The notes beneath the pieces were generated by a model. That model was not told the DNA's origin, ran no database searches, and saw only the letters and a list, made by a program, of their open reading frames with translations. Of a stretch of DNA of 64,000 bases, positions 7,164 through 32,850 are shown in pieces; the stretch's first letter is position 1; every line of letters starts with the position of its first letter. This stretch comes from Prosthecobacter fusiformis. Its GTDB lineage: Bacteria; Verrucomicrobiota; Verrucomicrobiia; Verrucomicrobiales; Verrucomicrobiaceae. A program made the position numbers and the translations under genes. The stretch is taken from assembly GCF_004364345.1 (NCBI RefSeq), contig NZ_SOCA01000001.1, positions 124,001-188,000 on the forward strand. Reading direction: 5' to 3'.

Positions 7164-8063
7164 CTATTCGATAGCCAGCACATGATTGGCGGCTTTTGCC
7201 GCGAGGCTTGCCGCTTCGACGATCCAGCGTTTGCGGTTCGGCTCACGGAGTGTGTCCAGCCAACATTGAAGATAAGCAGCGGATTGCTCGTGCTCATCCT
7301 GAACGATGCCAGCCTCCATGCCGAGGAACGCAGATCCCATTTCGGCAACAAGCTCCTCTTTGGAGTATTCGGTCATGACTGCTCCTGTCGCTCCCATGAG
7401 GCTATTCCTGTTCAGCCGTCTTTCATGTCCGGTCGAATGGATGATTTCATGGAACAAGACAAGGTGGTAGCTTTCCGCGTCAATGAACCTGGACCGAGCA
7501 GGCATTTCTATCGTGTCAGTGCTGACGCGGTAGCATGCCCTGACCGTCCTGCCTTCATGGATGTCCGGTTTGCCCGGCATTTCCTGCACGATCCTTTCCG
7601 CAGATTCAATCCGTCCTTCATTCGCCTGCGGTTCCGGCAGTTCCATCTCTGGAAACTCCACTCCATCGATTTGAAGGGCGTTGAAGACGGTGTAGCCACG
7701 CAAGTAATACACGGCCTTGGTTTCCTCCTCCTCCTTGCCTTTCGTCCGCCGCTCATGGCGTCCGTATTTGACAATGAGAGTGCCGCGCTCGCCTTTCCGC
7801 ACTTGGCCGCCGAGATCATTGGCCTGACGCATGGTCAGCCAGTAAGGCGATGCGAATCGCTTCACCCCGAGCAGCATCACGTTGATTCCCTGATACTCCC
7901 GGTTGCTTGCGAAGTTGCGCGGCCTGCCGACCTTCCTGTCCCAGGGGCAGCGCCAGGGCACTGTCCCTTCTTCGAGTTTCTTCAGGATCGTGTCTGTCAC
8001 GGCCTGATAGGCATCGAACCGCCTGGTTTCGCCTGATTCGGCTTTTGATGTCGCTGTTTTCAT
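7164..8063 (-). CDS. ardC: ArdC-like antirestriction protein (ssDNA-binding domain plus zincin-like domain)
   Basis: A 299-residue protein with the two-part ArdC layout. Residues 15-135 match the N-terminal ssDNA-binding domain (W37 R38 in a PWRCPW stretch, NREYQGIN, YYLRGYTVFN). The C-terminal metallopeptidase-like domain has the zinc motif H205-E-I-I-H209 and a downstream acidic ligand region (EELVAEMGSAFL, about 237-248). ArdC proteins of conjugative plasmids protect incoming single-stranded DNA from restriction after transfer. Presence next to coupling ATPases and a primase supports a conjugative element. The ATG at 8063 is the first in the frame and gives the usual length. Confidence 0.9.
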   Translation of the reverse strand: MKTATSKAESGETRRFDAYQAVTDTILKKLEEGTVPWRCPWDRKVGRPRNFASNREYQGINVMLLGVKRFASPYWLTMRQANDLGGQVRKGERGTLIVKYGRHERRTKGKEEEETKAVYYLRGYTVFNALQIDGVEFPEMELPEPQANEGRIESAERIVQEMPGKPDIHEGRTVRACYRVSTDTIEMPARSRFIDAESYHLVLFHEIIHSTGHERRLNRNSLMGATGAVMTEYSKEELVAEMGSAFLGMEAGIVQDEHEQSAAYLQCWLDTLREPNRKRWIVEAASLAAKAANHVLAIE

Positions 8064-9232: not shown

Positions 9233-10165
9233 TTATGCTGCAAGCGCCAGATGGCTGAATTGCAGCCTGGCGAATCGCTCGGCTTCGGGCCTCGACAGCT
9301 TCGTGTAGTGGGAAATGGAGTCCGGGGAGCTGTGCCCCACCAGCTGGGCAATGATCGCGTCCGGGGTTCCCAGTGCGGCCATGCGGTGGATGAAGGCGTG
9401 CCGGAACGAATGCGGCGTCAGCTTGCGGGTGATGCCGGCCCTGGCGCACGTGTCCCGGATCATCCGTTCGATGGTTCGTCGGTTGAGATGGGCTTTGCCA
9501 GGGGTGCGTCCTGCGAAGAGCCAGTCACTGTCGGGTCCATCATTGATCCTGCTCACCAGGTAGCGCTGAAGAACTTCATCGGTGTCCTGGTTCCAGAACA
9601 CCCGGCGGCGTTGCACGGTCTTTTCTGTGTCAATGACTGCCGAGCTGTCTTCCTCTATCTGCTCGATCTCCAGGGATTCCAGTTCCCCCACCCGCATGCC
9701 GGTGTCGTGGAGCAGCCGGACGATTACCAGATCGCGCAGGTGTTTCTCAGCCTTCAGCACGTCAACCAGCCGTCGGTATTCCTCCTCGGTGATGGCTTCA
9801 TGCGAGCGGGCCCTGGCGGTCGGGACGCGGGCAAGGTACAATGGCAGCCGAAGCCTGCCCTGCTCATGCCAGTAGCGGAGGTAGTTGTGGATGATGCTTA
9901 ACGCAAATTCCACATTCTTCGGAGCAAAGCGCCCATTCAGGCTGGAGGCAAAGGCGGTCCAATCGCCAATGACCAGATCCTCGGGCGCTTTGTTTGTGAA
10001 TGCCTGGAAGCGGGTCACCCAGAGGGCATATTTCTCTCCTGCTGACCGGGTATGAGTGGCTTTCCAGGCCAGGTATTCTTTGATAAGAGTCTGGTTGTCA
10101 GAGACAACCGGGGTGACGGCGGCGGGTTTGAAATCTCCGCGCCGTCGGGCGTAAGTGATGTACAT
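9233..10165 (-). CDS. Tyrosine recombinase/integrase (XerC/D type)
   Basis: A 310-residue protein of normal Xer length. It has a SAM-like N-terminal core-binding domain (about 25-110) and a catalytic domain with all expected residues: Arg in HDTGMRVGELESL, the H-x-x-R box as HSFRH, His in LVGHSSPD and the nucleophilic Tyr in ISHYTKLS. It breaks and rejoins DNA at specific sites, either integrating and excising the element or resolving dimers. It sits next to a palindrome-rich block (10166-11070). The element also has a serine recombinase at its right end, so this enzyme may serve a second, nested element or maintain the circular form. Confidence 0.93.
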   Translation of the reverse strand: MYITYARRRGDFKPAAVTPVVSDNQTLIKEYLAWKATHTRSAGEKYALWVTRFQAFTNKAPEDLVIGDWTAFASSLNGRFAPKNVEFALSIIHNYLRYWHEQGRLRLPLYLARVPTARARSHEAITEEEYRRLVDVLKAEKHLRDLVIVRLLHDTGMRVGELESLEIEQIEEDSSAVIDTEKTVQRRRVFWNQDTDEVLQRYLVSRINDGPDSDWLFAGRTPGKAHLNRRTIERMIRDTCARAGITRKLTPHSFRHAFIHRMAALGTPDAIIAQLVGHSSPDSISHYTKLSRPEAERFARLQFSHLALAA

Positions 10166-10913: not shown

Positions 10914-11070
10914 AAGGGTGGACTTGCTCTTTGCTCCGAAGCTCCGGCTTCGGTATCGGCGACAGCCTCTCTCCCAACCGGCTCTTCAACAAAAAGCATG
11001 CCGGCCTTCCGGCTCTTCCAGTCTTCACGATGGGACGGACGGGCTTCGGGCGAGGGCGGCCGCCTCCGAT

Positions 11071-12345
11071 ATGAATGATGAATCCATTTTCTTCGGCCAC
11101 CGCCATACCTATGGCGGGTTCAAAGTTCCCTATTTCCTGCCTCTGGCGGAGCTGTCGCGTCACGCCTATGTCCTGGGCAAGAGCGGTACCGGGAAGTCCA
11201 CCCTGCTTCAGCTTCTCATCGACGGGCTGATCCAGGCAGGTCACGGGGTGGGTGTTTTTGATCCGCATGGCGATCTCGCGTTATGGACATTGGATGCGGT
11301 TCCCCGTTCCCGGCTTGACGATGTGATTTATCTCAACTTCGGCGATGAGGAGTATGCCCCCTCTCTGAATTTTGTTTCTGATCAGGTGCCTTTTGAGGCG
11401 AGACCGCGTCTGGCTTCTGCTCTGGTGTCAGCGTTCCGGCATCTCTGGTTCGAAAGCTGGGGGCCAAGGCTTGAAAACATCTTGTATCATTCGCTGAGGG
11501 TGCTCATTGACTGCCAGAACACGAGTCTCATCGCCTTGCCCAGGCTTCTGACCGACGATGTTTACCGCGCCTGGGCTGTCCGCCAATGCCGCGACCCGTT
11601 CATCCGCGCATTCTGGGAGCGCGAATACGAAGTTTGGGACAAACGGTTTCGGACCGAAGCGATAGCACCCGTGCTCAACAAGCTGGGCCAGCTCGCGGCC
11701 TTTCCGCCCGTGCGGCATTCGCTTGGCCAGGTGAAGATGAAGGTGAATCTGCATGCGGTTCTGGATGAAGGTAAGATTCTGGTGGTCAACCTCGACAAAG
11801 GCAAACTGGGCGAGGACGCAGCGCGGCTTCTTGGGGCGCTTCTCACCGCCTCCCTTGCAGCGATGGCGATGGAGCGCAGTTCAATGCCCGCTTCTGCTCG
11901 GAAACCATTCACGCTTATCCTGGATGAAGCACATGGCTTCCTGTCGGACGCCATGGCGACGGTGCTTTCGGAGTCACGGAAATTTGGTCTTCAGCTCGTC
12001 ATGGCCCATCAGTTTCTTGGACAGCTATCACCTTTTATGCGGGAGGCGGTATTGGGTAATGCGGGCAGCATTTTTGCCTTCCGGGTATCAGGCGAAGACT
12101 CGGAGGTGATGGGGGCAAATTATGGCCACTCGATGGCTCCGGGCCTGTTTGCCGAATTGCCTGCTTTCACGGTGCTTGTACGCCCTGCTGAGGATGTAAT
12201 GCAGCCGATTCGAGTCTCGGTTGGGCCGCCAAAGCAGTTCGCGAAAAGACACCGCGATCCGGCCATGATTCGAAGCCGACAGCGTTTCTGCAGTCCCCGT
12301 CAGAATGTTGAGAGCAAACTGAGACGATGGTCAGATCAAAAATAA
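11071..12345 (+). CDS. VirD4/HerA-type conjugative coupling ATPase (short form)
   Basis: A 424-residue P-loop ATPase of the type IV coupling protein/HerA superfamily. Walker A is GKSGTGKST (36-44), followed by the family hallmark FDPHGDL. Walker B is FTLILDEAHGFLSD, then SESRKFGLQLVMAHQ, typical of 'type IV secretory system conjugative DNA transfer' proteins with a TraM-recognition region. No N-terminal membrane helix is seen, so it may act as a soluble motor or need a membrane partner. I chose the ATG at 11071 because the protein then begins just before the conserved GxxHTYGGFKVPY; a GTG at 10918 would add 51 low-quality residues. A second, longer coupling ATPase is encoded at 18544. Confidence 0.85.
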   Translation: MNDESIFFGHRHTYGGFKVPYFLPLAELSRHAYVLGKSGTGKSTLLQLLIDGLIQAGHGVGVFDPHGDLALWTLDAVPRSRLDDVIYLNFGDEEYAPSLNFVSDQVPFEARPRLASALVSAFRHLWFESWGPRLENILYHSLRVLIDCQNTSLIALPRLLTDDVYRAWAVRQCRDPFIRAFWEREYEVWDKRFRTEAIAPVLNKLGQLAAFPPVRHSLGQVKMKVNLHAVLDEGKILVVNLDKGKLGEDAARLLGALLTASLAAMAMERSSMPASARKPFTLILDEAHGFLSDAMATVLSESRKFGLQLVMAHQFLGQLSPFMREAVLGNAGSIFAFRVSGEDSEVMGANYGHSMAPGLFAELPAFTVLVRPAEDVMQPIRVSVGPPKQFAKRHRDPAMIRSRQRFCSPRQNVESKLRRWSDQK

Positions 12346-12386: not shown

Positions 12387-13313
12387 ATGCACCAATCGCG
12401 GCCAAGGAAGCCACGATTCAAACGCGTCACCGATAGCGTCCGACTCATTCTCACAGAACGAGATCTTGCCATCCTCTCAGCCGTCGGTCGCCACCGGTTT
12501 ATTCAGTCGCATCACCTGCTTAAGCTCATTCCCGGAAGCCGCCAGCATTTGATCCGGCGGCTTGGAAGATTGTTCCATGCAGGCCTTCTGGATCGGCCAG
12601 TCCAGCAGATGTACGTCCGGGACAAGATCGGGCAGAAAATTGCCTATTGCCTGACCTCGCAAGGATTGAAGGTTTTGAGTGAACGTGCGTCATATCAACT
12701 CTTGTCCTTGCCGCGCCAAAAAGGGATCACCGCAGCCTTGTCACTGTTCCATTCTTTGCGTGTAACCGACGTTCTGGTCGCAATGGAATTCGCAGCGACT
12801 GCACGGGCACTGGCCATTCGTTGGCCCCAGGAATGGCCGTCTGGGCAGTCTGAAATAGATCGAAGGCCCGTGCGCTTGAAATGGTCCGTAACACTCAAAA
12901 CAGGCCGGGAAGTTCTGAAAACCTGGCAGCTCCCTGACGGAGCGTTTTCCCTTTCATCCGCCGATGGTGAACCGCGATATTATATCCTTGAGGTGGATCG
13001 GGGCACCATGCCTGTTCATCGCAAGGGGCTATCCCAATCCTCATTCTATCGCAAAATCCTTTCATACAAGGAAACACGCCGACAAGGGGTCCTGTGGAGC
13101 AGGTTTCATATTCCCGCCTTTCGTGTGCTGGTCGTGGCTGAATCCAGGCGGAGGCTCTTTTCTCTTCAACAGGCAACAGCATCAACCTTCAAAAACCGCG
13201 AATCCAAAATGTTCCTGTTCGCAGTTGCTTCGGAACTTTTGGAGCAGGGAGATGCTTTGAGCCATGGCTGGGAAACCTGCTCAGGAAAGAAGGTCTATCC
13301 CCTCATGGAATAA
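12387..13313 (+). CDS. Replication-relaxation family protein (Replic_Relax)
   Basis: A 308-residue protein with an N-terminal winged-helix domain (TERDLAILSAVGRHRFIQSHHL, residues 22-45; LIRRLGRLFHAGLL) and a C-terminal part carrying 'LPDGAF' and 'YYILEVDRGTM', the hallmarks of the Replic_Relax/MobC-like family found on plasmids and integrative elements. The second motif resembles a degenerate restriction-endonuclease core. Members are thought to assist DNA relaxation at transfer or replication origins; enzymatic activity is not proven. It follows the coupling ATPase by 41 bases on the same strand and is therefore probably in one operon with it. No separate relaxase is visible, so this protein is the best candidate for processing the element's DNA. 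Confidence 0.8.
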   Translation: MHQSRPRKPRFKRVTDSVRLILTERDLAILSAVGRHRFIQSHHLLKLIPGSRQHLIRRLGRLFHAGLLDRPVQQMYVRDKIGQKIAYCLTSQGLKVLSERASYQLLSLPRQKGITAALSLFHSLRVTDVLVAMEFAATARALAIRWPQEWPSGQSEIDRRPVRLKWSVTLKTGREVLKTWQLPDGAFSLSSADGEPRYYILEVDRGTMPVHRKGLSQSSFYRKILSYKETRRQGVLWSRFHIPAFRVLVVAESRRRLFSLQQATASTFKNRESKMFLFAVASELLEQGDALSHGWETCSGKKVYPLME

Positions 13314-13413: not shown

Positions 13414-13453
13414 CGTCTTCTAACCAAATCCACCATCAAAATTGTTCTTTATC

Positions 13454-14515
13454 ATGAGCACTTCTACCGCTTCTCAGAACGCCTTCGTTGATTTCAAAGA
13501 GGTGAAATCGCGGATCGGCATCCTTCAGGTCCTCGAACGCTACGGTCTGCTGAGCAATCTGAAGCGCGCAGCAGACCGTCTTTCGGGCCCGTGTCCCCTG
13601 CACAAGGGCACCAATCCGACGCAGTTCCGGGTGTCCGTTTCCCGCAATTGCTTCAACTGCTTCGGCACCTGTGGTCGAGGCGGCAACGTCATCGACTTCG
13701 TTTCGCTCCGGGAAGGCATCTCTTTCCGGGACGCTGCGCTGCTTCTCCAAGACTGGTTCATGCCCGACAAGGCCGCGAACCGTTTCGCTGGAACAGCACC
13801 CAGGCAGACGACGGAGGCTTCCCCCCGCCCGTCTTCTCAGCCACTTCAACCGCCGCCAGCAGTCGCCGATGACCCGGATGAGGATACGGGTGAAAACCCG
13901 CCTCTTTCATTCGCTCTGAAGGCACTGAAGTCCGATCATCCGTATCTTTCCGCACGCGGTCTCACAGAGGCCACGATTGCAAGCTACGGGATTGGCTATT
14001 GCGCCAAGGGCTGTCTGCGTGGCCATGTGGCTATCCCCATCCGCAACCGCGATGGAGTTCTCACAGGTTACATTGGAAGATGGCCTGGAGATCCACCGCA
14101 GGGTCAGGGCAAATACAAACTGCCAAAGGGATTCCGCAAAAGCCGCGAGGTCTTCAACATTGATCGCGCTGTCCACGCGGATTCATCGGACCCCTTGCTG
14201 GTCGTCGAAGGCGTCTTTGACTGCCTTCATCTCGTCCAGCTCGGATTTTCGGCGACCGTTGCCATCCTCGGCTCTTCACTGTCTCCCCGTCAGGAAATTC
14301 TGATCCGGGAAGCAGCGAGGACTAAACGGCCCGTGTATTTGCTCTTCGATGCAGACGAGGCAGGAAGAAAAGGAGCTTCAGAGGCTGCAATGCTTTTATG
14401 CAGCTCTTCCATCGTCCGTATCATCGATATCGGCGCATACCAACCGCAGCCGGAACTGCTGGAACGTTCGCAGGTTGAGGCTCTTCTCACACAACATGGA
14501 GCCACTACCCCATGA
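13454..14515 (+). CDS. DnaG-type primase of a mobile element (CHC2 zinc finger plus TOPRIM)
   Basis: A 353-residue protein. The N-terminal CHC2 zinc finger shows C47, H50, C66 and C69 followed by GRGGNVIDFV. After a proline-rich linker (about 115-150) comes the DnaG catalytic core: YLSARGLTEATIASYGIGYC, GHVAIPIRNRDG and a TOPRIM domain with the acidic residues in LLVVEGVFD (E252) and LLFDADEAGRKG (D299, D301). It would make RNA primers on single-stranded DNA after transfer or during element replication. It is shorter than chromosomal DnaG because the C-terminal helicase-binding domain is missing. I prefer the ATG at 13454 over the TTG four codons upstream. Confidence 0.88.
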   Translation: MSTSTASQNAFVDFKEVKSRIGILQVLERYGLLSNLKRAADRLSGPCPLHKGTNPTQFRVSVSRNCFNCFGTCGRGGNVIDFVSLREGISFRDAALLLQDWFMPDKAANRFAGTAPRQTTEASPRPSSQPLQPPPAVADDPDEDTGENPPLSFALKALKSDHPYLSARGLTEATIASYGIGYCAKGCLRGHVAIPIRNRDGVLTGYIGRWPGDPPQGQGKYKLPKGFRKSREVFNIDRAVHADSSDPLLVVEGVFDCLHLVQLGFSATVAILGSSLSPRQEILIREAARTKRPVYLLFDADEAGRKGASEAAMLLCSSSIVRIIDIGAYQPQPELLERSQVEALLTQHGATTP

Positions 14516-14787: not shown

Positions 14788-14913
14788 AAGGACTCTGAAT
14801 CGGCTGCAAGGCCAGGCTCTCGCGACTCGCTTCAACGCATGGAGCCGTCCCGCTTAAAGCGCGAGAGTGTAACTCACGAAGCAGCCTGCAATCGCAGGCG
14901 GACGGCAGAGAAG

Positions 14914-15432
14914 ATGACATTGAAACAACTCGAATTGTTCCTGCCAAATCCTTCCAACCTCCCGGCACAGCGACGACGAAAGTCCGCGCCCCAGGAGTTA
15001 AAGGTCATCAGTCTGCGGGAGTGCCCCTCCCCAGAATCCCTGATGTTGATGGACTGCCCGGCGAAAGCTGTGGAATACTGGCACCACCACATCACCGCCT
15101 CTCCGAATTACAACGCGGATGTGGAATGTGTGGTGGTGCTCGTGCTCAGCACAAGGCTGCGGATCAAAGGACACTACCTGGTGTCCGTTGGCTCGCTCAA
15201 TGAGGCCATGGCGCATCCGCGCGGAGTCTTTCGCATCGCCATCATGGCCGCAGCTCATGCCATCGTGCTCATGCACAACCACCCGAGCGGAGATTCTTCC
15301 CCAAGTCCTGCCGACACGTCACTTACCAGACGCGTCCGCGAGGCAGGAGAGCTTCTTCGCATCGAGCTTTGCGACCACATCATCGTTGGCCATCAGCGAT
15401 ACTTCTCTTTCAAAGAGAGCTGTATCATCTGA
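14914..15432 (+). CDS. radC: RadC-like JAB/MPN domain protein
   Basis: About 172 residues with the RadC-type JAB metalloprotease-like domain: 'YNADVECVVVLVLST' and the JAMM signature H121-x-H123-P-S-G-(x)7-S-P-A-D134, followed by the typical DHIIVGHQRYFSF ending. Short RadC-like proteins (about 150-170 residues) without the helix-hairpin-helix part are common on mobile elements; the biochemical role is still debated. I chose the ATG at 14914 because the extra residues from an ATG at 14839 look like non-conserved leader. A strong terminator follows, so it probably ends this operon. Confidence 0.88.
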   Translation: MTLKQLELFLPNPSNLPAQRRRKSAPQELKVISLRECPSPESLMLMDCPAKAVEYWHHHITASPNYNADVECVVVLVLSTRLRIKGHYLVSVGSLNEAMAHPRGVFRIAIMAAAHAIVLMHNHPSGDSSPSPADTSLTRRVREAGELLRIELCDHIIVGHQRYFSFKESCII

Positions 15433-15450
15433 AGCCCAAGGATGTTTTAC

Positions 15451-15490
15451 AACCCTGATCAGACCTAGTTCTGATCAGGGTTTTCTTTTA
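15451..15490 (+). terminator. Strong intrinsic terminator after radC-like gene
   Basis: Perfect 12-bp arms AACCCTGATCAG (15451-15462) and CTGATCAGGGTT (15471-15482) with an 8-base loop, then TTCTTTTA. Confidence 0.88.
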
Positions 15491-15855
15491 CACTCGCTCC
15501 TTTTATCGGCCCAGAACACCATATGGCCTTCCTCTGCCATGAACGTTTGCATGAGCATTTAAATGTATTGACTGCACAATTTTGGTTTTTCCCGCGATTC
15601 GTGTGAAAAATTGCTGCCCTCGGGGGGGTATTCTGGTCGAATCCCATCATTACAAGCTCGATGGAAATGCAGCGGGGTGCGGAGTGGCGACTGGTTGGGT
15701 TCAAGATGACGGGCTTCAGGCGGTTTTACATATTTTTTGCCAGCCCAGTCACTGGAACAGCCTGAGTAAACCAATTTTTGCTAGGTGTTTGGCAGTCGCC
15801 ATGATAAATTTCATTCTGAACCTCAGAATGAGTTATTATCTAATAGTAGATCCTT
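15491..15855. other. 365-bp gap before the deaminase-methyltransferase gene
   Basis: No gene recognised. It marks a change from the GC-rich conjugation genes to visibly lower-GC cargo, and should contain that gene's promoter. Confidence 0.45.
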
Positions 15856-17157
15856 ATGCTTAAACCTGAAAAACTTTATTCGTTCATGAAGATGGCCATC
15901 TCAGAGTCGCGGAAATCCAAGCCTGAAGATGGTAGCATTCACCCAAAAGTGGGAGCTGTAATCGTTGATGAAAATGGCACTGTTGTTGCCAAGGCTCACC
16001 GTGGTGAGCAAGGCCGTGGAGATCATGCTGAGTTTATTGCTATTTCGAAGGCTATCCAAGCAGGATTCAAGGATTTCTCTCGCGCTACAATTTTTGCAAC
16101 TCTTGAACCCTGCACTCATAGGGGTCATGGAAAAACCCCTTGTGCTGAACGTATTGTCAACACAGGATTTGGTCGCATTTACATCGGCGCACTTGATCCT
16201 AATCCCGTTATAGTGGGACACGGTGAGACTTTTCTCCGCATGAGACAAGGCTTGATAGTCGAAAGATTTCCTTCTGAGTTAGAGAGACAAATACGAGAAG
16301 ATAATAGAGAGTTTTGGAACTTATTTTCTAGCGCCCATCTCCCATCAACATCGTTGTACATTCAGGTCCGTGTTTCCGACGTGATTTTGAGCAAATTACG
16401 CTCCGCAGGTGTCGACATTGACCATATACCCACAGAAGATGATTACTCTTTGCGAGATTTAGCGTCTTACGTATACGGACGCGGGAAATTTCACTCCAAA
16501 ACACGCAAGGAAATACTAGATTTCTTGGTTGAAGCTAGGTCATCGGCATTCGATCAGAAGTACAGCAGTTATACATATGATCAAGATGCACGAAAGATTG
16601 AAGAAAGATGGAAGAAGGAATTTCCAGGCATACTAAAGCGCTTTAAAGTCTATGATTTTCCAAAGCGCAGAATTTTAAATGTTGGTATTGGAAATGGCCT
16701 AGAAGGAGTTGGCCTTTTTGAACATTGCATTAACTTCACTGGAGTTGACATCGCGCCGGAATCTCTTACGAAAGCACAAACTAAATTCCCTAGGGCTACT
16801 TTTATCAAAGATTCAGCCGAGTCCTTGGACGAGATTTCTGACCAATCCCAAGACATATATGTTTCGCTGCGAACTTACCAATCGGCCTTTTTCGACATTC
16901 AAGAGTCAGTTCGACAAGCTTATCGCGTCCTTGCACCAGGAGGAATTTTTATAGCCTCCATCGCAAATGCATATGTTGAAGGTAACGTGTTTGTTCGAGG
17001 ATTACTTCCTCATGGCTCGAAGAATGTAGATCAAGACTGCGCACCAAACTTAGCAAATGCGATAAGACATATTCTCACAAAACACCGATTTGATGACGTT
17101 GGTGTTCACTCTGGGAAAGCAGAGGAATACGTTTTTGGGAGGAAGCGTTATCATTAA
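15856..17157 (+). CDS. RibD-like deaminase fused to a SAM-dependent methyltransferase
   Basis: A 433-residue two-enzyme fusion. Residues 5-145 match the zinc deaminase domain of RibD: HPKVGAVIV, H57-A-E59 (ligand and proton shuttle), then TLEPCTHRG and TPCAERI giving C86 and C96. RibD's reductase half is absent. Residues 160-262 are an unassigned, helical, charged linker region. Residues 270-430 are a class I methyltransferase: motif I ILNVGIGNGLEG (273-284), acidic D298 in FTGVDIAPESL and VLAPGGIFIASIANAY. Together they could deaminate and methylate a pyrimidine or pterin-like compound, or a nucleic-acid base; the substrate is unknown. Codon use is more AT-rich than in the neighbours, which points to recent acquisition. 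Not part of a riboflavin operon. Confidence 0.85.
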   Translation: MLKPEKLYSFMKMAISESRKSKPEDGSIHPKVGAVIVDENGTVVAKAHRGEQGRGDHAEFIAISKAIQAGFKDFSRATIFATLEPCTHRGHGKTPCAERIVNTGFGRIYIGALDPNPVIVGHGETFLRMRQGLIVERFPSELERQIREDNREFWNLFSSAHLPSTSLYIQVRVSDVILSKLRSAGVDIDHIPTEDDYSLRDLASYVYGRGKFHSKTRKEILDFLVEARSSAFDQKYSSYTYDQDARKIEERWKKEFPGILKRFKVYDFPKRRILNVGIGNGLEGVGLFEHCINFTGVDIAPESLTKAQTKFPRATFIKDSAESLDEISDQSQDIYVSLRTYQSAFFDIQESVRQAYRVLAPGGIFIASIANAYVEGNVFVRGLLPHGSKNVDQDCAPNLANAIRHILTKHRFDDVGVHSGKAEEYVFGRKRYH

Positions 17158-17237
17158 ATCGACTTAAAGTGGTGTCCTGAGGAAAAAGGTTCATATGCAG
17201 CATTAAAACAGGGAGCAATTATTTTTCGCAAGACTAT

Positions 17238-17480
17238 TCACAGCGAAAGAATATCAATTTTTGCAGCAAGAAGAATCTGGCGGGGAAGTTTGACGATCCG
17301 CTCATCTAAACCGCAGCCAGCAGTGGCAGGAAGGCGTCCACGGGATTCCTCCGTGATGTCGATTCCAATGACCGCAATATCCCCGTCAGCCAGTTCCCAC
17401 AGATCTGGGCAACCGTCCAGAGCGGGAGTTTGCTTCCCATTCTCGTGAGGGTCAGGACCGAGGCGACGAAGGAATTTCAT
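17238..17480 (-). CDS. Small conserved protein (80 aa), possible partner of the XRE regulator
   Basis: It has the compact pattern 'RRLGPDPHENG', 'GCPDLWELADGDIAVIGIDIT' and 'ERIVKLPRQILLAAK', which resembles small proteins common next to helix-turn-helix regulators in actinobacterial genomes. In those families the product is of unknown function but tightly linked to an XRE gene. Here it is divergent from the XRE gene at 17546, with 65 bases between them, as expected for a shared promoter region. The family match is from memory of the pattern, so I treat it as tentative. It looks real because the conserved blocks run through the whole short frame. Confidence 0.6.
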   Translation of the reverse strand: MKFLRRLGPDPHENGKQTPALDGCPDLWELADGDIAVIGIDITEESRGRLPATAGCGLDERIVKLPRQILLAAKIDILSL

Positions 17481-17545: not shown

Positions 17546-17815
17546 TTGTGGGTGTCACGTCCTCAGGAAGCCAGTGCTGCGCTTTGCGAAGCTCTCAGAG
17601 AAATTCTCCGAGAGGCTAGGATCGAAGCGGATTTGTCACTGAACGAACTTGGCAAACGGTCTGGCGTTGATCGCAATGCCATTAGCTTTGTTGAGCAAGG
17701 ACGACGCATCCCTTCGGTGGAGACATTGGCGAAGATAGCTTTCGGATTAGGACTCCCAGCAAGCCTCCTTTGGCAGAGAGCAGAAAGGCGGGATCTGGGC
17801 AACAAGGGCAAATAA
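17546..17815 (+). CDS. XRE-family helix-turn-helix regulator
   Basis: An 89-residue protein with one complete XRE domain: 'LREARIEADLSLNELGKRSGVDRNAISFVEQGRRIPSVETLAKIAFGLGL' split into the five expected helices. No ATG is available: an in-frame stop precedes a TTG at 17546, and a GTG at 17552 is equally possible. It is divergent from the small gene at 17238 and precedes the membrane protein at 17836 by 20 bases. It most likely regulates the second conjugation operon and itself, perhaps through sites in the 17480-17545 gap. Confidence 0.88.
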   Translation: MWVSRPQEASAALCEALREILREARIEADLSLNELGKRSGVDRNAISFVEQGRRIPSVETLAKIAFGLGLPASLLWQRAERRDLGNKGK

Positions 17816-17835
17816 CAAGCGAAACCCTCAATTAT

Positions 17836-18540
17836 ATGAACCTACCGACATTTGGAATCTGGAGGCGCAAAAGGCCAGAGGTGATCAAATACTGGTATAC
17901 CCCGATTGAGCGCGGCTCGTTTAGCACAGACGAGTTTTACAGCCGGATCGAAGGCTGGCTTCAGGAAAGGCAATTACCTGGTTTTGAGGTCACTCGTGAG
18001 GAATTCAGCGAAGGCGGAGCACTTTCACCTCACCGCCAATATCTCCGCATCCGCCGCGAGCGGCTGGTCTTTGATGTCTGCTCCGCCGCCTTTGGGGAGG
18101 CCTGGTTCTTTTCAGCTAGGCAGGCCCAGATCCCTGTCTCTCTCATGGTCTGGGAACTGTTGGTCATCCTTGCCGTCATCGCTGCCATCGTTCTCGGCTA
18201 CATCCAGCTCTTCGGCGTCATCGCCGGAAGCGCTATCATTCTTTTCAGCCTGATCGGCGGGTTCATGCTTATGAGGAACGCCCTGACGCTGGGCCTCCAT
18301 GACCTGGACGCGTTCTTTCTTCGCATTCCCATTTTCGGCACGCTTTATGAACTGGTTCGGAAGGAAACTTATCACCGCTATGACACACGTTTGATGTTTT
18401 TGGATCAGACGGAAGCTCTTGTGAAACGTGCCGTCGAGGAGATGACGGCGGCGGGTGGCATCAAGCAGGTTGAGTTCAAAGAAGCCTGGCCGGAGGCCCA
18501 TCCGGCGCTCGCTTCCCTGCTCCGCCGGTTGGAACGATGA
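17836..18540 (+). CDS. Membrane protein of the conjugation operon, hypothetical
   Basis: A 234-residue protein with a soluble N-terminal third and a hydrophobic pair of helices near residues 110-155 (VWELLVILAVIAAIVLGYIQLFGV, AGSAIILFSLIGGFMLM). It ends four bases before the next ATG, so it is co-transcribed with the large coupling ATPase, which lacks obvious membrane helices. It is therefore a good candidate for that ATPase's membrane anchor. No known family recognised. Confidence 0.75.
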   Translation: MNLPTFGIWRRKRPEVIKYWYTPIERGSFSTDEFYSRIEGWLQERQLPGFEVTREEFSEGGALSPHRQYLRIRRERLVFDVCSAAFGEAWFFSARQAQIPVSLMVWELLVILAVIAAIVLGYIQLFGVIAGSAIILFSLIGGFMLMRNALTLGLHDLDAFFLRIPIFGTLYELVRKETYHRYDTRLMFLDQTEALVKRAVEEMTAAGGIKQVEFKEAWPEAHPALASLLRRLER

Positions 18541-18543
18541 GCC

Positions 18544-21500
18544 ATGACCACACTCGAACAGGAGCTTACCGGGCAGTTCTACCGCTTCGAGCTTCCCGGA
18601 CGCGGCGGACAGGTGTGCCCGGAGCCGGTGTCCATCGAGCCTCCGTTCCGATCTTTCCCCGGATATCACCTCCCCCAGCCAAAGGTTAAGGACGACGGAC
18701 GCAAGCACACGTTTTTCAGCGGCTTTATGGAGCGGCTCGGAAGGACAATATCCGATACTGAGGAACCAGCTGATCCAGAGGAGCATGAGTCCCCGCAATT
18801 TTTCCCGTGGGAACGGCAGGCTATCGTTGAATTTCAGATTTCGCTTCCTCGCGAGCGCAAAGGCTTGGCGGCGCGCATGGAGCAGCTCCTTAGTTCTATC
18901 TCTCTTTGCGGGGAGCCGGTGAGCTTCGAGATTCTGGGAATGGGTGGCGACGCGCTGCTCCAAATTGCTGCAAGCATTGACGACGCTCCTCTCGTCGAAC
19001 GACAGCTTTCCCTGCTTTTCCCTGGAATGGTTGTGACCGCGACCGAGGACGCGCTGATGGAAGCCTGGCAACAGACAGGCAACTCGTTTGCGATCTGCGA
19101 ATGCGGCCTTGAGCGGGAATTCATGCTACCTCTGGGCCTGATACGTTCGGGCCCGTATTTCCCTCTGCTTTCCGCTTTGGCATCGCTCGACGAGACGGAA
19201 CTCGGCATCCTGCAGGTCATCTTCGAGCCCGTGCGTCATTCCTGGGGCGGCGAGGCGCTCCAGGCGGTATCCGATGGTGAGGGCGGCCCATTCTTCGTGA
19301 ATCGCCCTGAGCTACTAACCGGAGCGAAAGCGAAGTTCTCAAGACCTCTCCATGCGGTAGTAGTCCGCTTCGCCTCTTCAGCCGATGACTCTGAGCGCGC
19401 CTGGAAAATCGTTGCGGAGATGCTATCAGGATTCGTTGCGGATGCGAGCGATGCCGACAACCGCCTGATCCCCCTCTCAAATGATGGCTACGAGGGGCGG
19501 GATCACGAGCGCGACCTGATCCTCCGCCAGTCAAGGCGGACCGGGATGCTTCTCAACCGGGACGAACTGTCTTGGCTGGTGCGCTTCCCCGAAGACCCTC
19601 TCACTGCTGCGCTCCTGAGGTCGGACAGCGGCATGACTCGGGCCGCACCTGAATCGGCCATCCAGACTTCTCCCCTTCAGCTTGGCTTCAACGAACATGG
19701 AGGCGTTTCAAATCCCGTCTTCCTTAGCGACGAGAACCGCTTTCGTCACACCCATGTCATTGGAGCCTCAGGCACTGGTAAATCGACCCTGCTTTTCAAT
19801 CTGATCCGCCAGGACATCGAAGCTGGCGCTGGAGTGGGGGTGTTGGACCCGCATGGAGACCTGATCGAGAAAATCCTCGGGATCATTCCCGATCACCGGA
19901 TCAAGGATGTGATATTGCTCGACCCTTCAGACGAAGAGTATGTCATCGGGTTCAACATCCTGTCAGCCCACAGCGATCTTGAAAAGACTTTACTTGCCTC
20001 GGACCTGGTTTCGATCTTCGCTCGGCTCTCGACCAGCTGGGGGGACCAGATGAACAGCGTCTTCCAGAATGCAATTCTCGCCTTCCTCGAAAGCCGCACC
20101 GGCGGCACCCTGGCGGACCTCCGGCGCTTTCTGCTCGATAAGGACTTCCGGTCAGCCTTCCTGAAAACGGTGGAAGACCCGGAGGCAGTCTTCTATTGGG
20201 AGAAGGCGTTCCCCCAGCTTGGCGGCAACAAGTCCATAGGCCCCATCTTGACCCGGCTGGAATCGTTTTTGTCGCCCAAATCCATCCGGTACATGGTCTC
20301 AGAGAAGTCTAACAATCTCGACTTTGCCCAGATAATGAACAGCGGCAAAATTCTCCTGGCATGTCTGCCCCAGGGACGGATGGGCCGCGAGAATTCGTAT
20401 CTCCTCGGCAGCCTCCTGGTGGCAAAATTTCAGCAGACGGCCATGAGCCGCCAAGCTCTCGCTGAGAAGGACCGGAAGCCATTCTGGCTCTACATTGACG
20501 AGTTCCAAAACTTCGCCACCCCTTCGATGTCAGAGATCCTCTCAGGTGCCCGTAAGTACCGACTTGGACTCACACTTGCCCACCAAGACCTTGCGCAAAT
20601 TCGACGATACCCGGAGCTTTCGAGCGCAGTTTTAACAAACACTTGCACGCGTATCGTCTTTCGTCCCGGCGATGAGGATGCCCAGTCGCTGGCGGCAGGC
20701 TTCGCGCATTTTGATTCCAAGGCGCTCATGAGCCTCTCCGTTGGCGATGCCGTCTGCCGGATCGGGCGCAGCGATGCGGACTTCAATCTCAGGGTGCCTG
20801 CCTCAGATCTCGGCGATAAAGAACATCTGGGAGAAAGACGCCTTGAGGTTATCGAAAGTTCGCGCAGCCAGTATGGACGGTCCAAGGTTGAGATTGCGGC
20901 CGAAAGGGTGGAAAACAGCACCGCACCGCACAAGCCTTCTCTTGCAGCGGAGAGACAGGAAAAGAAGTCGATTGACCCGGAGCCCAGAAAAACAGATGCA
21001 GGTGAAAGTGCAGAGGAAAAGCCAAAGGCCCCTTCCCTATCATCTGCGGTTCCAAGCTCACCTGCTTCACCCTCTTCATACAGCCCGACTACTATTCGGG
21101 AAGATGTGGAGGCTCTTGGACGCGGCGGGGCGCTTCATCAGGCAGTGCAACTGGAACTCAAGCAAATCGCCGAGACGCACGGGTTCAGGGCTGTCGTGGA
21201 GAAACAGATTTCCGGTTCCCTGGAGACAGTGGATCTCTACCTGGAACGAGGCAGCACGATCATCGCCTGCGAGATCTCGGTGACTAACACGCTCGAATAT
21301 GAACTGAAGAATGTAACCAAGTGCTTGAAAGCCGGATTCCCATTGGTGGCGATGGTCGCGCTAGACGCAGGAAAGCTAGCAAAGCTTGAGGCCGCTATCC
21401 GCAACTCCTTATCCGATGTGCAGACCACACAGGTGCAATTCTTTCTGAAGAGCGACTTTGTTACCCTCCTTCAGTCGCTGGTGCTAAAAGATGTCCATTT

Positions 21501-21651
21501 CTCAGGTGGAAAAGAGAAACTGCGGAAGGGCTGGAAAGTCAATACCACCACTGTTGAAATCAGCGAAGAGGAAGCGAAGGCGCGCGCTGCAAGCATAGCC
21601 TCAGCAATGGCAGACTCACTCAAGAGCCGAAAGCGTTCCAATGGCTCATGA
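18544..21651 (+). CDS. Large VirD4/HerA-type coupling ATPase with C-terminal nuclease-like domain
   Basis: A 1035-residue protein. Residues 1-400 form an N-terminal domain found in 'type IV secretory system conjugative DNA transfer' proteins of integrative elements. The ATPase core follows: Walker A GASGTGKST at about 407-415, FDPHGDL-like VLDPHGDLIEKI, Walker B FWLYIDEFQNF at about 647-657 and SGARKYRLGLTLAHQDL. The stretch from about 770 to 850 is charged and low-complexity. Residues about 862-960 look like a PD-(D/E)xK fold: GFRAVVEKQ, VDLYLERGSTIIACEISVTN, with Asp and Glu in the right order. That would be unusual for a coupling protein. It probably powers DNA export through a membrane partner (17836). 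Confidence 0.85.
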   Translation: MTTLEQELTGQFYRFELPGRGGQVCPEPVSIEPPFRSFPGYHLPQPKVKDDGRKHTFFSGFMERLGRTISDTEEPADPEEHESPQFFPWERQAIVEFQISLPRERKGLAARMEQLLSSISLCGEPVSFEILGMGGDALLQIAASIDDAPLVERQLSLLFPGMVVTATEDALMEAWQQTGNSFAICECGLEREFMLPLGLIRSGPYFPLLSALASLDETELGILQVIFEPVRHSWGGEALQAVSDGEGGPFFVNRPELLTGAKAKFSRPLHAVVVRFASSADDSERAWKIVAEMLSGFVADASDADNRLIPLSNDGYEGRDHERDLILRQSRRTGMLLNRDELSWLVRFPEDPLTAALLRSDSGMTRAAPESAIQTSPLQLGFNEHGGVSNPVFLSDENRFRHTHVIGASGTGKSTLLFNLIRQDIEAGAGVGVLDPHGDLIEKILGIIPDHRIKDVILLDPSDEEYVIGFNILSAHSDLEKTLLASDLVSIFARLSTSWGDQMNSVFQNAILAFLESRTGGTLADLRRFLLDKDFRSAFLKTVEDPEAVFYWEKAFPQLGGNKSIGPILTRLESFLSPKSIRYMVSEKSNNLDFAQIMNSGKILLACLPQGRMGRENSYLLGSLLVAKFQQTAMSRQALAEKDRKPFWLYIDEFQNFATPSMSEILSGARKYRLGLTLAHQDLAQIRRYPELSSAVLTNTCTRIVFRPGDEDAQSLAAGFAHFDSKALMSLSVGDAVCRIGRSDADFNLRVPASDLGDKEHLGERRLEVIESSRSQYGRSKVEIAAERVENSTAPHKPSLAAERQEKKSIDPEPRKTDAGESAEEKPKAPSLSSAVPSSPASPSSYSPTTIREDVEALGRGGALHQAVQLELKQIAETHGFRAVVEKQISGSLETVDLYLERGSTIIACEISVTNTLEYELKNVTKCLKAGFPLVAMVALDAGKLAKLEAAIRNSLSDVQTTQVQFFLKSDFVTLLQSLVLKDVHFSGGKEKLRKGWKVNTTTVEISEEEAKARAASIASAMADSLKSRKRSNGS

Positions 21652-29257: not shown

Positions 29258-30826
29258 ATGAATGCTTTGCCCAAAAGCCATTTGCCAGCGAAGAGAGTAG
29301 GCGTCTGGATCCGAGTTTCCACTGAGGACCAGGCCCAGGGAGACAGCCCCGAGCATCACCGCATCCGCGCTGAGCATTACTGCCAGGCGATGGGCTGGCA
29401 GATCGTCGAGACGTATGACCTTGCGGGAGTAAGCGGCAAGGAGGTGCTGGGCCATCCTGAAGCGAAGCGGATGCTTGCCGACGTCAAGCGCGGGCACGTC
29501 AAGTCGGTGGTGTTTACCAAGCTCGCCCGCCTGACTCGCAACGCCAAGGAACTCATGGAGCTTTCCGAATACTTCCGGCAGAACGACGCCGACTTGGTAT
29601 CGCTCCAGGAGAACATCGACACGAGCACCCCATCAGGCCGACTCTTCTACAATATCGTGTCGGTGATGGCACAATGGGAGCGCGAGGAAATCGCGGATAG
29701 GGTCCGCAGCTCCATTCCGATCCGGGCGAAGCTCGGCAAGCCCATCAACGGCAAGGCACCCTACGGCTACGAATGGAAGGACAAGCAGCTTGTCGTCCAA
29801 CCGGATGAAGCCCCAATCCGAAAGCTCATCCACGAGCTTTTCCTGGAGCACAAGAGGCTCAAGACCGTGGCCAGGATACTGAACGAGCGCGGATACCGTT
29901 CCCGCAACGGCAAGGAATGGTCCGACATGACGATCCGCTTCCAGATCCTCGACCCTACTGCCAAGGGAGTCTATCGCCGCAACTACACGCGAAACAATGG
30001 CAAGGGAAAGCCCTGGACGATCAAGCCCGAGGCCGAGCATATCTTCAATGCTGCTCCCCCAATCATCTCGGAAGAGCTATGGGATGGCTGCCATGCCCTT
30101 CTTGAAGGCAGGCGCATCACACGGAAAGCCCCCATGAAGAAGCCGGCCCACCTCTTTGCAGGATTCGTCCACTGCGGATGCGAAGGGCCGATGTATGTGC
30201 CTAGCAATTCGCCGAAATACACCTGTAAGAGCTGCCGCAACAAGATCCCCTGCTCCGACCTTGAGGATATCTTTCTTGATGAGGTGACCGGTTTCCTCGT
30301 GAATCCCGACCACATCCGGACCTATCTCTCCAAGGCAAGTGAGGCGGTAACTGAGAAGGAGCGCCTGCTCGAGGCCCACAAGAAGGAGATCGCGAAGCTC
30401 CGCGCCGACGCGGATAAGCTGGTCGATCTCTATACCGCTGGTGGATTCACCATCGAGCAATTCAAAGAGCGGCATGAGCCCATCGACGAGCGCAAGCGGC
30501 AGCTGAATGGAGAGCTCCCCCGCCTCGAAGCCCAGATCGATCTGCTGAAGATGGAGAGCGTCACGAGTGACGACATGATGAGGGAAGCTTCGGACATCGG
30601 AACCCGTTGGAAAGACATGAACGGTGACGAGAAGCGGCGGATCGTCGAGCTGATGCTGACCAGCATCGAGATCGGGAAGGGCGAGATGAAAATCAACCTC
30701 GTCCAGCTCCCTTCTTACCAAGAGACTGCAAATTGGCAAGACATGGCAAAAAGTACATGGGCACCGAGCGCACCACCTTTGTCATTGACCCTGAGGGCAA
30801 GATTAAAGCCGTCTTTCCAAAGGTGA
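29258..30826 (+). CDS. Large serine recombinase (site-specific integrase)
   Basis: A 522-residue serine integrase. The catalytic domain (15-160) has S21 in WIRVSTEDQAQG, the ARLTRNAKE arginine stretch and the family LFYNIVSVMAQWERE segment. A recombinase domain follows (GKAPYGYEWKDK..., about 165-260), then a zinc-ribbon region (HCGCEGPM, TCKSCRNKI) and a coiled coil (about 355-430). It integrates DNA between attP and attB. The last ~25 residues are read from the host bcp gene in another frame, so the present stop codon is supplied by the chromosome; the native C-terminus in the circular element would differ. ATG at 29258. Confidence 0.93.
   Translation: MNALPKSHLPAKRVGVWIRVSTEDQAQGDSPEHHRIRAEHYCQAMGWQIVETYDLAGVSGKEVLGHPEAKRMLADVKRGHVKSVVFTKLARLTRNAKELMELSEYFRQNDADLVSLQENIDTSTPSGRLFYNIVSVMAQWEREEIADRVRSSIPIRAKLGKPINGKAPYGYEWKDKQLVVQPDEAPIRKLIHELFLEHKRLKTVARILNERGYRSRNGKEWSDMTIRFQILDPTAKGVYRRNYTRNNGKGKPWTIKPEAEHIFNAAPPIISEELWDGCHALLEGRRITRKAPMKKPAHLFAGFVHCGCEGPMYVPSNSPKYTCKSCRNKIPCSDLEDIFLDEVTGFLVNPDHIRTYLSKASEAVTEKERLLEAHKKEIAKLRADADKLVDLYTAGGFTIEQFKERHEPIDERKRQLNGELPRLEAQIDLLKMESVTSDDMMREASDIGTRWKDMNGDEKRRIVELMLTSIEIGKGEMKINLVQLPSYQETANWQDMAKSTWAPSAPPLSLTLRARLKPSFQR
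30740..30762. other. Probable right attachment site (attR) inside bcp
   Basis: The recombinase ORF meets the bcp remnant here. The recognisable bcp sequence starts with GKKYMG at 30745, so the crossover lies at or just before it. The sequence ACATGGCAAAAAGTACATGG contains the junction. The left attachment site is not in the window. Confidence 0.6.
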
Positions 30827-32776: not shown

Positions 32777-32850
32777 TGGCTACCCCTCAAGGACTCGAAC
32801 CTTGAACAACAGAGTCAGAATCTGTTATGTTACCATTACACCAAGGGGTA
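32777..32850 (-). tRNA. tRNA-Gln, anticodon CTG
   Basis: On the minus strand the acceptor pairs TACCCCT with AGGGGTA, the anticodon arm is ACAGA-TTCTGAC-TCTGT (anticodon CTG), and the T arm is CAAGG-TTCGAGT-CCTTG. A CCA end is encoded. All arms pair without mismatch, so it is intact. It is not used as an integration site here. Confidence 0.95.

Follow-up and report, generated by a model that had tools for sequence, protein, structure and literature searches.

In the riboflavin enzyme RibD/RibG, a deaminase domain is joined to a reductase half, and residue N23 of RibG is in contact with the substrate. The fungal Rib2, a eukaryotic riboflavin enzyme, has a RibD-type deaminase without reductase, fused instead to another domain and with a PCX9C spacing of its zinc ligands. 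Deaminases can also act as solitary resistance proteins, like the blasticidin-S deaminase, or belong to phage defence, as is the case of the anti-phage dCTP deaminases; besides, structures of toxoflavin methyltransferases are deposited in the PDB. For the RibG-type deaminase group, the zinc motifs are given as 'HXE and PCX8-9C' and, for Bacillus subtilis RibG, contacts of Lys79 with the phosphate and of Asp101 and Asn103 with the ribose are named (PMC8256712). Beyond riboflavin, the pseudoiodinine cluster, modelled on toxoflavin, combines a GTP cyclohydrolase with two methyltransferases and the RibD protein PsdG; deletion of psdG lowered pseudoiodinine production only partly (PMC9911603).

The gene considered here lies in a window of 64,000 nucleotides from Prosthecobacter fusiformis (contig NZ_SOCA01000001.1, positions 124,001 to 188,000), i.e. 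the whole stretch of DNA that was analysed and on which the coordinates are counted (Table 1). By its family matches, the product is a RibD-type enzyme whose known deaminase is joined to a new partner domain, with a methyltransferase in place of the reductase. Residues 6-111 match Pfam dCMP_cyt_deam_1 (E 1.2e-17) and residues 274-366 match Methyltransf_11 (E 1.1e-12), which bears out the fusion of a RibD-type deaminase with a class I methyltransferase claimed in an earlier note on this DNA. The NCBIfam RibD model TIGR00326 is matched at model positions 1-117 of 343 only (82.6 bits for a cut-off of 156.35), so that the reductase half is absent from the protein. While the deaminase domain, the zinc motifs, the ribose and phosphate contacts and the linker helix are shared with RibD/RibG, the fusion differs by its connector and methyltransferase replacing the reductase, by an insertion in the zinc loop and by the lack of a rib operon, the host keeping a separate RibD-like ORF. 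Rib2 is alike in having a RibD-type deaminase without reductase and the same PCX9C spacing, but its partner domain is a different one. That the gene is more than a chance ORF is indicated by full-length homologues spanning 91-98% of the protein with E values of 9e-39 to 7e-44 (five plasmid matches). The host genome contains one full copy of the fusion, a separate RibD-like ORF of 364 aa at C1:1161619 and one GTP cyclohydrolase II (GCH II) on another contig (G000:C2) than the fusion. Since the host has both GCH II and this separate ORF, the fusion gene is probably not needed for riboflavin. It is also solitary, with element genes as neighbours, in agreement with the location outside a riboflavin operon that had been stated before.

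Table 1. Features of the element and of the fusion gene (coordinates of the window).
Feature	Coordinates	Strand	Basis
ArdC antirestriction protein	7164..8063	-	homology search
Tyrosine integrase	9233..10165	-	homology search
TraG/VirD4-like ATPase	10918..12345	+	cross-matches to TraD and homologues in sister elements
Replication-relaxation protein	12387..13313	+	homology search
CHC2 zinc-finger/Toprim primase of the element	13442..14515	+	Pfam
RadC-like JAB protein, backbone gene bordering the slot on the left	14839..15432	+	Pfam; identity of 90% (L054) and 81% (L055)
Terminator-like hairpin behind RadC, marking the left slot edge	15451..15482	+	conserved in L054
Cargo segment, ~1.75 kb	15490..17241		missing in both closest sister elements, where ~0.1 kb of unrelated DNA is found instead
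Hairpin/dyad ATTCTGA-acc-TCAGAAT, possible operator or terminator	15810..15832		23 bases before the start codon
RibD-type deaminase-methyltransferase fusion gene	15856..17157	+	ATG start, 433 aa; Pfam, NCBIfam, homologue alignment
Deaminase domain and RibD-like linker helix (residues 1-146)	15856..16293	+	Pfam, RibD half, key residues, hhalign
Connector (residues 147-262)	16294..16641	+	conserved with Streptomyces homologues, without known family
Class I SAM methyltransferase domain (residues 263-433), motif I LNVGIGNG	16642..17154	+	UbiE/COQ5-type matches
80-aa ORF, right neighbour of the slot	17238..17480	-	without Pfam family; conserved at the DNA level in both L054 and L055
XRE-type HTH regulator, backbone	17546..17815	+	Pfam; 93% identical in L054
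Conserved element protein, no Pfam family	17770..18540	+	sister-element comparison
VirD4/TraD-type coupling ATPase	18544..21651	+	NCBIfam
Large serine recombinase	29258..30826	+	directly after TraD in L058, L063, L064, L067 and L071

In the deaminase half, the zinc motifs H57-A-E59 and P85-C86-X9-C96 are intact, H57, A58, E59, C86 and C96 being found where they had been read previously, and K93 and D114-P-N116 are kept as well. The C86-C96 spacing agrees with 'PCX8-9C', and by alignment, in which the RibG residues were counted with a 12-residue tag offset, K79, D101 and N103 of RibG (PMC8256712) correspond to K93, D114 and N116 of the fusion protein. RibD structures in the PDB are matched at E 1e-15, the NCBIfam match to RibD (E 2.9e-23) is far stronger than that to TadA (E 0.0024), and hhalign against RibD-like ORFs of related genomes gives a probability of 99.5% (E 2e-22); of the two alignments made from these ORFs, the first held all 15 and the second, from which the latter E value stems, was built without L017, L019, L021 and L022, i.e. 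ORFs wrongly picked, over-long or disrupted by simple ORF choice. Departures from RibD are also present, namely an insertion in the C86-C96 loop with the loss of one of two prolines, and an 'HP' where RibG has 'NP', the position of RibG N23 being occupied by His29. As the RibD contacts are kept but the zinc loop and the 'NP' are changed, the substrate is probably RibD-like, though not necessarily exactly the riboflavin intermediate DAROPP.

The methyltransferase half finds its best Pfam families in Methyltransf_11 and Methyltransf_25, and its NCBIfam relatives, all under cut-off, include BioC, UbiE/MenG, UbiG, NodS and arsenite methyltransferases. A profile of the C-terminal two thirds retrieves COQ5, YcgJ and UbiE/COQ5-family structures from the PDB, and no toxoflavin-type methyltransferase is among the PDB matches. 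Judging from these relatives, the domain is closest to UbiE/COQ5-type small-molecule enzymes. Residues 236-377 match mad2 of PADLOC (E 1.8e-10), which is taken to reflect the general methyltransferase fold since mad2 also matches a type II DNA methyltransferase of locus L056. No DNA methylase family of Pfam or NCBIfam matches the fusion protein and no DNA-methyltransferase motif (N6/N4 or C5) was seen in it by eye; DNA methylation as the function was consequently rejected in favour of the small-molecule families, and the possible DNA modification put forward earlier finds no support. An enzyme modifying DNA or RNA appears extremely improbable: the deaminase superfamily does include nucleic-acid editors, and the protein lies above the Pfam cut-offs of both MafB19-deam (39.6 bits) and Inv-AAD (32.2 bits), but the methyltransferase is UbiE-like without any DNA methylase model and RibD largely prevails over TadA on the deaminase side.

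Between the two halves, the connector amounts to ~115 aa, its start being set at residue 147, behind the RibD-like linker helix, and it encompasses the region previously delimited as residues 160-262 and left unassigned. It is without Pfam match up to E 5, and the best match of a PDB profile search is only at E 0.38; it is nonetheless conserved, with 28-34% identity to the Streptomyces homologues over residues 137-262. A relic of the RibD reductase was considered and rejected, the hhalign probability against the RibD ORFs of relatives being 0.2%. The replacement of the reductase half by an unassigned region, as had been proposed, is thus upheld by the partial TIGR00326 match and by a connector without family and unrelated to the RibD ORFs.

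By their homologies, the genes around the fusion belong to an integrative element of conjugative type. At E <= 1e-30, its primase is found in 18 of the 68 genomes of the family and, at E <= 1e-25, its conserved protein without Pfam family is found in 20 of the 288 genomes of the order, the host being included in both counts. The alignment with the sister element L054 (G841) ends at 15489 and restarts at 17293, and that with L055 (G842) ends at 15433 and restarts at 17242. The fusion gene is the sole supported gene of the intervening segment, the 93-aa TTG ORF upstream of it (15582-15863) not being counted as a gene. Since the two closest copies of the element are without this segment, which holds the fusion gene alone, the comparison indicates that the gene is acquired single-gene cargo, and the cargo status claimed earlier is sustained by the same absence.

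The base composition, which had been said to be more AT-rich than that of the surrounding conjugation genes, is indeed so, with a GC of 0.432 and a GC3 of 0.366 for the fusion gene (0.436 GC for the segment) against 0.511-0.574 and 0.489-0.740, respectively, for nine other element genes. Codon statistics, suggested as a check together with GC, lend weak support: the fusion gene lies at a distance of 0.132 from the element background, compared with 0.081 (a gene of 476 codons), 0.083 (358 codons), 0.106 (523 codons) and 0.130 (RadC, which is shorter), these distances not being like-for-like as the background contains the other element genes but not the fusion gene. A promoter search upstream of the fusion gene gave two sigma-70-like sites in all, for 3.5 expected by chance; both are on the - strand and none is on the + strand. 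At the left of the ArdC and integrase genes, a 461-aa ORF (2974-4359, + strand) shows one PD40 beta-propeller match (E 1.1e-4).

The position occupied by the fusion gene was examined in 23 sister copies of the element, of which 16 could be classed, the slot ORFs being tested selectively; the seven others (G009, G889, G031, G001, G849, G838 and G011) ended with the contig or had an unclear gene order. Of the 16 classed copies, 2 have defence systems in the slot and 5 have efflux-type genes; the remaining 9 contain nothing that was recognised. In G018 (L057), dense cargo spanning L057:3276-15399 comprises a DrmD-like SNF2 helicase, a PDC-S06-type AAA_13 ATPase, type III modification and restriction proteins and a CBASS with a SAVED-HNH effector and a SMODS cyclase. 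In the first copy of G836 (L056:6476-13187), a Csx27-like membrane protein, E1-E2 and JAB proteins and then a type II restriction-modification pair are encoded, as well as a 354-aa protein with a PDC-M48B match. In G029, the slot contains an AcrB-type pump and a multicopper oxidase; relatives of the pump lie downstream of the primase in G005 (83%), in the second copy of G842 (85%) and, at about 30%, in G030 and G839, the multicopper oxidase being found at 89% in G839 on another contig. The slot is empty in three copies (G841, the first copy of G842 and G913, the latter without ORF of at least 120 aa between the primase and the next backbone protein) and short in five, namely G014, G833, G848 and G004 with gaps of ~1.1 kb and G830 with small ORFs. 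In the second copy of G836 (L067), the slot ORFs are without assignment (PADLOC on three, Pfam on two), and none of 10 further ORFs, some of them possibly outside the slot proper, matched PADLOC at E <= 1e-10. One small type of slot ORF has 11 further counterparts within the set and is, because of this recurrence, regarded as backbone rather than cargo. Judging from these gene contents, the element family has behind RadC/primase a slot for accessory cargo of a general kind, which includes defence and efflux genes. Beside the conserved protein without Pfam family, a G001 contig encodes PSD/PSCyt-type (DUF1592/1588) and DUF4838 proteins (L104:1345-8072), which may lie outside the element.

Inferring defence from the position in the slot alone was rejected, the slot also receiving efflux-type genes or nothing recognised. 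As an explanation in its own right, an anti-phage or counter-defence factor deaminating and/or methylating the nucleotide pool or a signal nucleotide, with an effect like that of anti-phage dCTP deaminases, seems rather unlikely. The defence cargo of G018 and G836 speaks for it, together with cross-matches to the PADLOC dCTPase (E 5.7e-5) and to the NCBIfam anti-phage dCTP deaminase (E 2e-4), whose enzymes share with the fusion the deaminase superfamily and a possible nucleotide substrate. However, the best deaminase match is RibD rather than dCTP or dCMP deaminases, the dCTP cross-matches are local and limited to residues 51-109, NF041025 (anti-phage dCTP deaminase) reaches 20.3 bits for a cut-off of 400, and none of the PADLOC matches covers a full architecture, the partial ones being mad2 and, at residues 53-109, dCTPase. 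Besides, the fusion has no sensing or effector partner and its homologues stand in a biosynthetic-looking cluster. The role in defence surmised in the earlier note is thus a possibility to which the CBASS and restriction-modification cargo of 2 of the 16 classed copies lends some weight, the partial PADLOC matches falling short of demonstrating it.

Full-length homologues, with 29-32% identity, were found in Streptomyces only, at 12 distinct loci (L004-L008, L119-L121 and L123-L126, with L122 left out as a duplicate of L007 and, in L006, the upstream start 7926 used instead of the annotated 8010). The homology is colinear over the whole length in an alignment of 13 rows including the fusion protein, with the same connector and methyltransferase; mean identity to the fusion protein is 36% for the methyltransferase (35-38% in the individual homologues), 30% for the connector and 24% for the deaminase. 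In contrast to the Prosthecobacter protein, the HxE and PC motifs are absent from the N-terminal 120-130 residues in all 12 Streptomyces proteins, i.e. the zinc ligands and the catalytic Glu are lost, and the counterparts of K93 and N116 are replaced, that of D114 being kept or gapped depending on the alignment. The domain is still recognisable as RibD-related, with an hhalign probability of 76% (E 2e-5) against 0.1% for a control with the methyltransferase part, whereas Pfam sees it only at E 0.011. On these residues, the family would consist of one apparently active member, the Prosthecobacter protein, and of a Streptomyces lineage with a dead deaminase; in other words, apparently active and dead versions of the same deaminase domain exist in one architecture. 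Since the deaminase is dead in 12 of 12 homologues, it is methyltransferase activity rather than deamination that the family members have in common.

It could accordingly be asked whether the methyltransferase alone matters, the deaminase domain being a binding scaffold on its way to a pseudo-deaminase of the Streptomyces type. Such a state is suggested by the better conservation of the methyltransferase and connector relative to the deaminase and by the dead Streptomyces domain, but it is highly unlikely for a protein that retains every one of the zinc, catalytic and K93/D114/N116 residues, as neutral decay would not keep them.

While the Prosthecobacter gene is a single gene on an integrative element, its homologues belong to a fixed multi-gene cluster. 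Downstream of the gene, all 12 loci have genes for UDG-family, Nuc_deoxyrib_tr-family, carrier-adenylation, two ketosynthase-type and carrier-thioesterase proteins and a small conserved ORF, the families having been assigned by Pfam on eight L008 proteins and two L004 proteins only, with the deoxyribosyltransferase-family match of L008 just below cut-off (28.2 for 28.8). The deoxyribosyltransferase-family proteins keep a GTxFELG stretch, which we take to be the catalytic Glu region, and the UDG-family protein has a relative in Listeria, at 58% identity, that carries the annotation SMUG2. An APH-type phosphotransferase lies near the cluster, in its whole length in 9 of the 12 loci; its start is present in L007 (the duplicate L122 shows it almost complete), it is cut by the stretch end in L006, and it is not seen in L008 before the stretch end. 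The cluster adjoins an HTH-peptide deformylase fusion in five loci and an aldo/keto reductase in four. From these families, the cluster looks biosynthetic, with a chemistry that probably runs through nucleobases. No such UDG/deoxyribosyltransferase/ketosynthase cluster surrounds the Prosthecobacter gene, and a search of the host genome, run without positive control, revealed no relatives of the UDG-family and deoxyribosyltransferase-family proteins of the cluster. The search for the same domain order and its neighbours, recommended beforehand, hence led to 12 loci that all share one conserved cluster, and the fusion gene points to a strictly conserved, uncharacterised Streptomyces cluster.

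The phosphotransferase also bears on resistance, in which the fusion protein would deaminate and/or methylate a nucleoside-type antibiotic or toxin and so inactivate it, in the manner of the blasticidin-S deaminase. Its presence near the cluster would mean that the cluster product may be toxic, and the fusion gene is single-gene cargo in a slot that also takes efflux-pump and multicopper-oxidase genes. Resistance is distinctly unlikely all the same, as the RibD set of ribose and phosphate residues suggests a phosphorylated intracellular metabolite, and a deaminase that is dead in the Streptomyces cluster is not the self-resistance activity there.

The domain order, the catalytic and ribose/phosphate residues, the small-molecule type of the methyltransferase, the cargo status, the GCH II of the host and the context of the homologues, all read from sequence, point instead to a two-domain small-molecule enzyme that would convert a riboflavin-pathway nucleotide into a methylated pyrimidine. 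We give this explanation a rough probability of 0.45, i.e. a little below even odds, its substrate, order of steps, product and use being what we infer from those features. The substrate of the RibD-type deaminase would be a phosphoribosyl-aminopyrimidine, whose exocyclic amine it would hydrolyse; DAROPP, which the host GCH II can supply, is the likeliest, or else a close analogue. The SAM methyltransferase, tied on by the family-specific connector, would then methylate the resulting pyrimidine or a derivative. In this way, a nucleotide of the riboflavin pathway would be drawn off by an accessory cargo gene of a conjugative-type element to form a methylated pyrimidine metabolite, and since the host GCH II makes the candidate substrate, one gene could act alone. 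Against this conversion speak the lack of partner genes nearby, the dead deaminase in all other members found and the changed zinc loop, as well as His29 at the position of RibG N23, the only partial effect of the psdG deletion in the pseudoiodinine precedent and the absence of toxoflavin-type methyltransferases among the PDB matches. A more specific version, in which DAROPP itself would be turned into a methylated pyrimidine serving as an antivitamin, a signal or an anti-phage metabolite, with the Streptomyces deaminase as a derived scaffold, is a long shot.

The pairing of a RibD-type deaminase with SAM methyltransferases after GCH II is what the toxoflavin and pseudoiodinine pathways have in common with the fusion (PMC9911603). 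They differ in that the genes are separate there and fused here, and in that neither GCH II nor a sulphatase-modifying-factor-like gene stands beside the fusion, the sole propeller match among the window ORFs searched (PD40) lying 11.5 kb off. The pseudoiodinine pathway is a precedent for the pathway logic and not for the fusion. The specialised metabolite guessed at in the earlier note is the best supported of its proposals, with 12 of 12 homologues in a biosynthetic-looking cluster. Of the finding by which that note would be refuted, homologues always beside riboflavin or antibiotic genes with a characterised product, one half is borne out: the homologues always have biosynthetic-looking neighbours, and no characterised product turned up among the papers listed. 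As a one-gene, expressible enzyme, the fusion offers a means through which the substrate could be found.

Regarding its distribution, the architecture is rare. A protein search of plasmid records gave 99 matching records, of which five were full-length, all from Streptomyces, and a Streptomyces query returned the same five and no others. Phage records contained no full-length match, two of them matching the N-terminal deaminase only, and likewise no viral contig had one, two loci matching the deaminase only. Near the host, RibD or methyltransferase parts alone were found besides the host itself (among 56 relatives, 387 genomes of the phylum and 386 of the order, host included in each), and 394 genomes sampled across a class, with a Nocardia genome as the centre, yielded methyltransferase parts only, in five of them; one further genomic-contig locus matched by its methyltransferase only. 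In a genus draw, inferred to be Streptomyces, 8 of the 343 genomes had a full-length match, one of these being the duplicate L122, the best 4-6 candidates per genome being scored in this draw as in those of 387, 386 and 394, so that, on this basis, the host stands alone among the 386 genomes of the order. Among the papers listed, none dealt by title or start of abstract with the fusion or the Streptomyces cluster, subscription literature being outside the search.

Beyond the slot of the fusion gene, the element encodes a 2197-aa protein (21659-28252, - strand) with a PADLOC DUF626_VIII match at residues 21-251 (E 1.4e-16), alpha/beta-hydrolase and TPR matches below threshold and an HTH_upstream_double_PIN match at cut-off (E 5.7e-6). 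Its gene separates TraD from the serine recombinase; because these two directly adjoin each other in five sister loci, its site is probably a second cargo site, possibly for defence. Close to the serine recombinase end, a tRNA-Gln (32777-32850, - strand) is a candidate attachment site.
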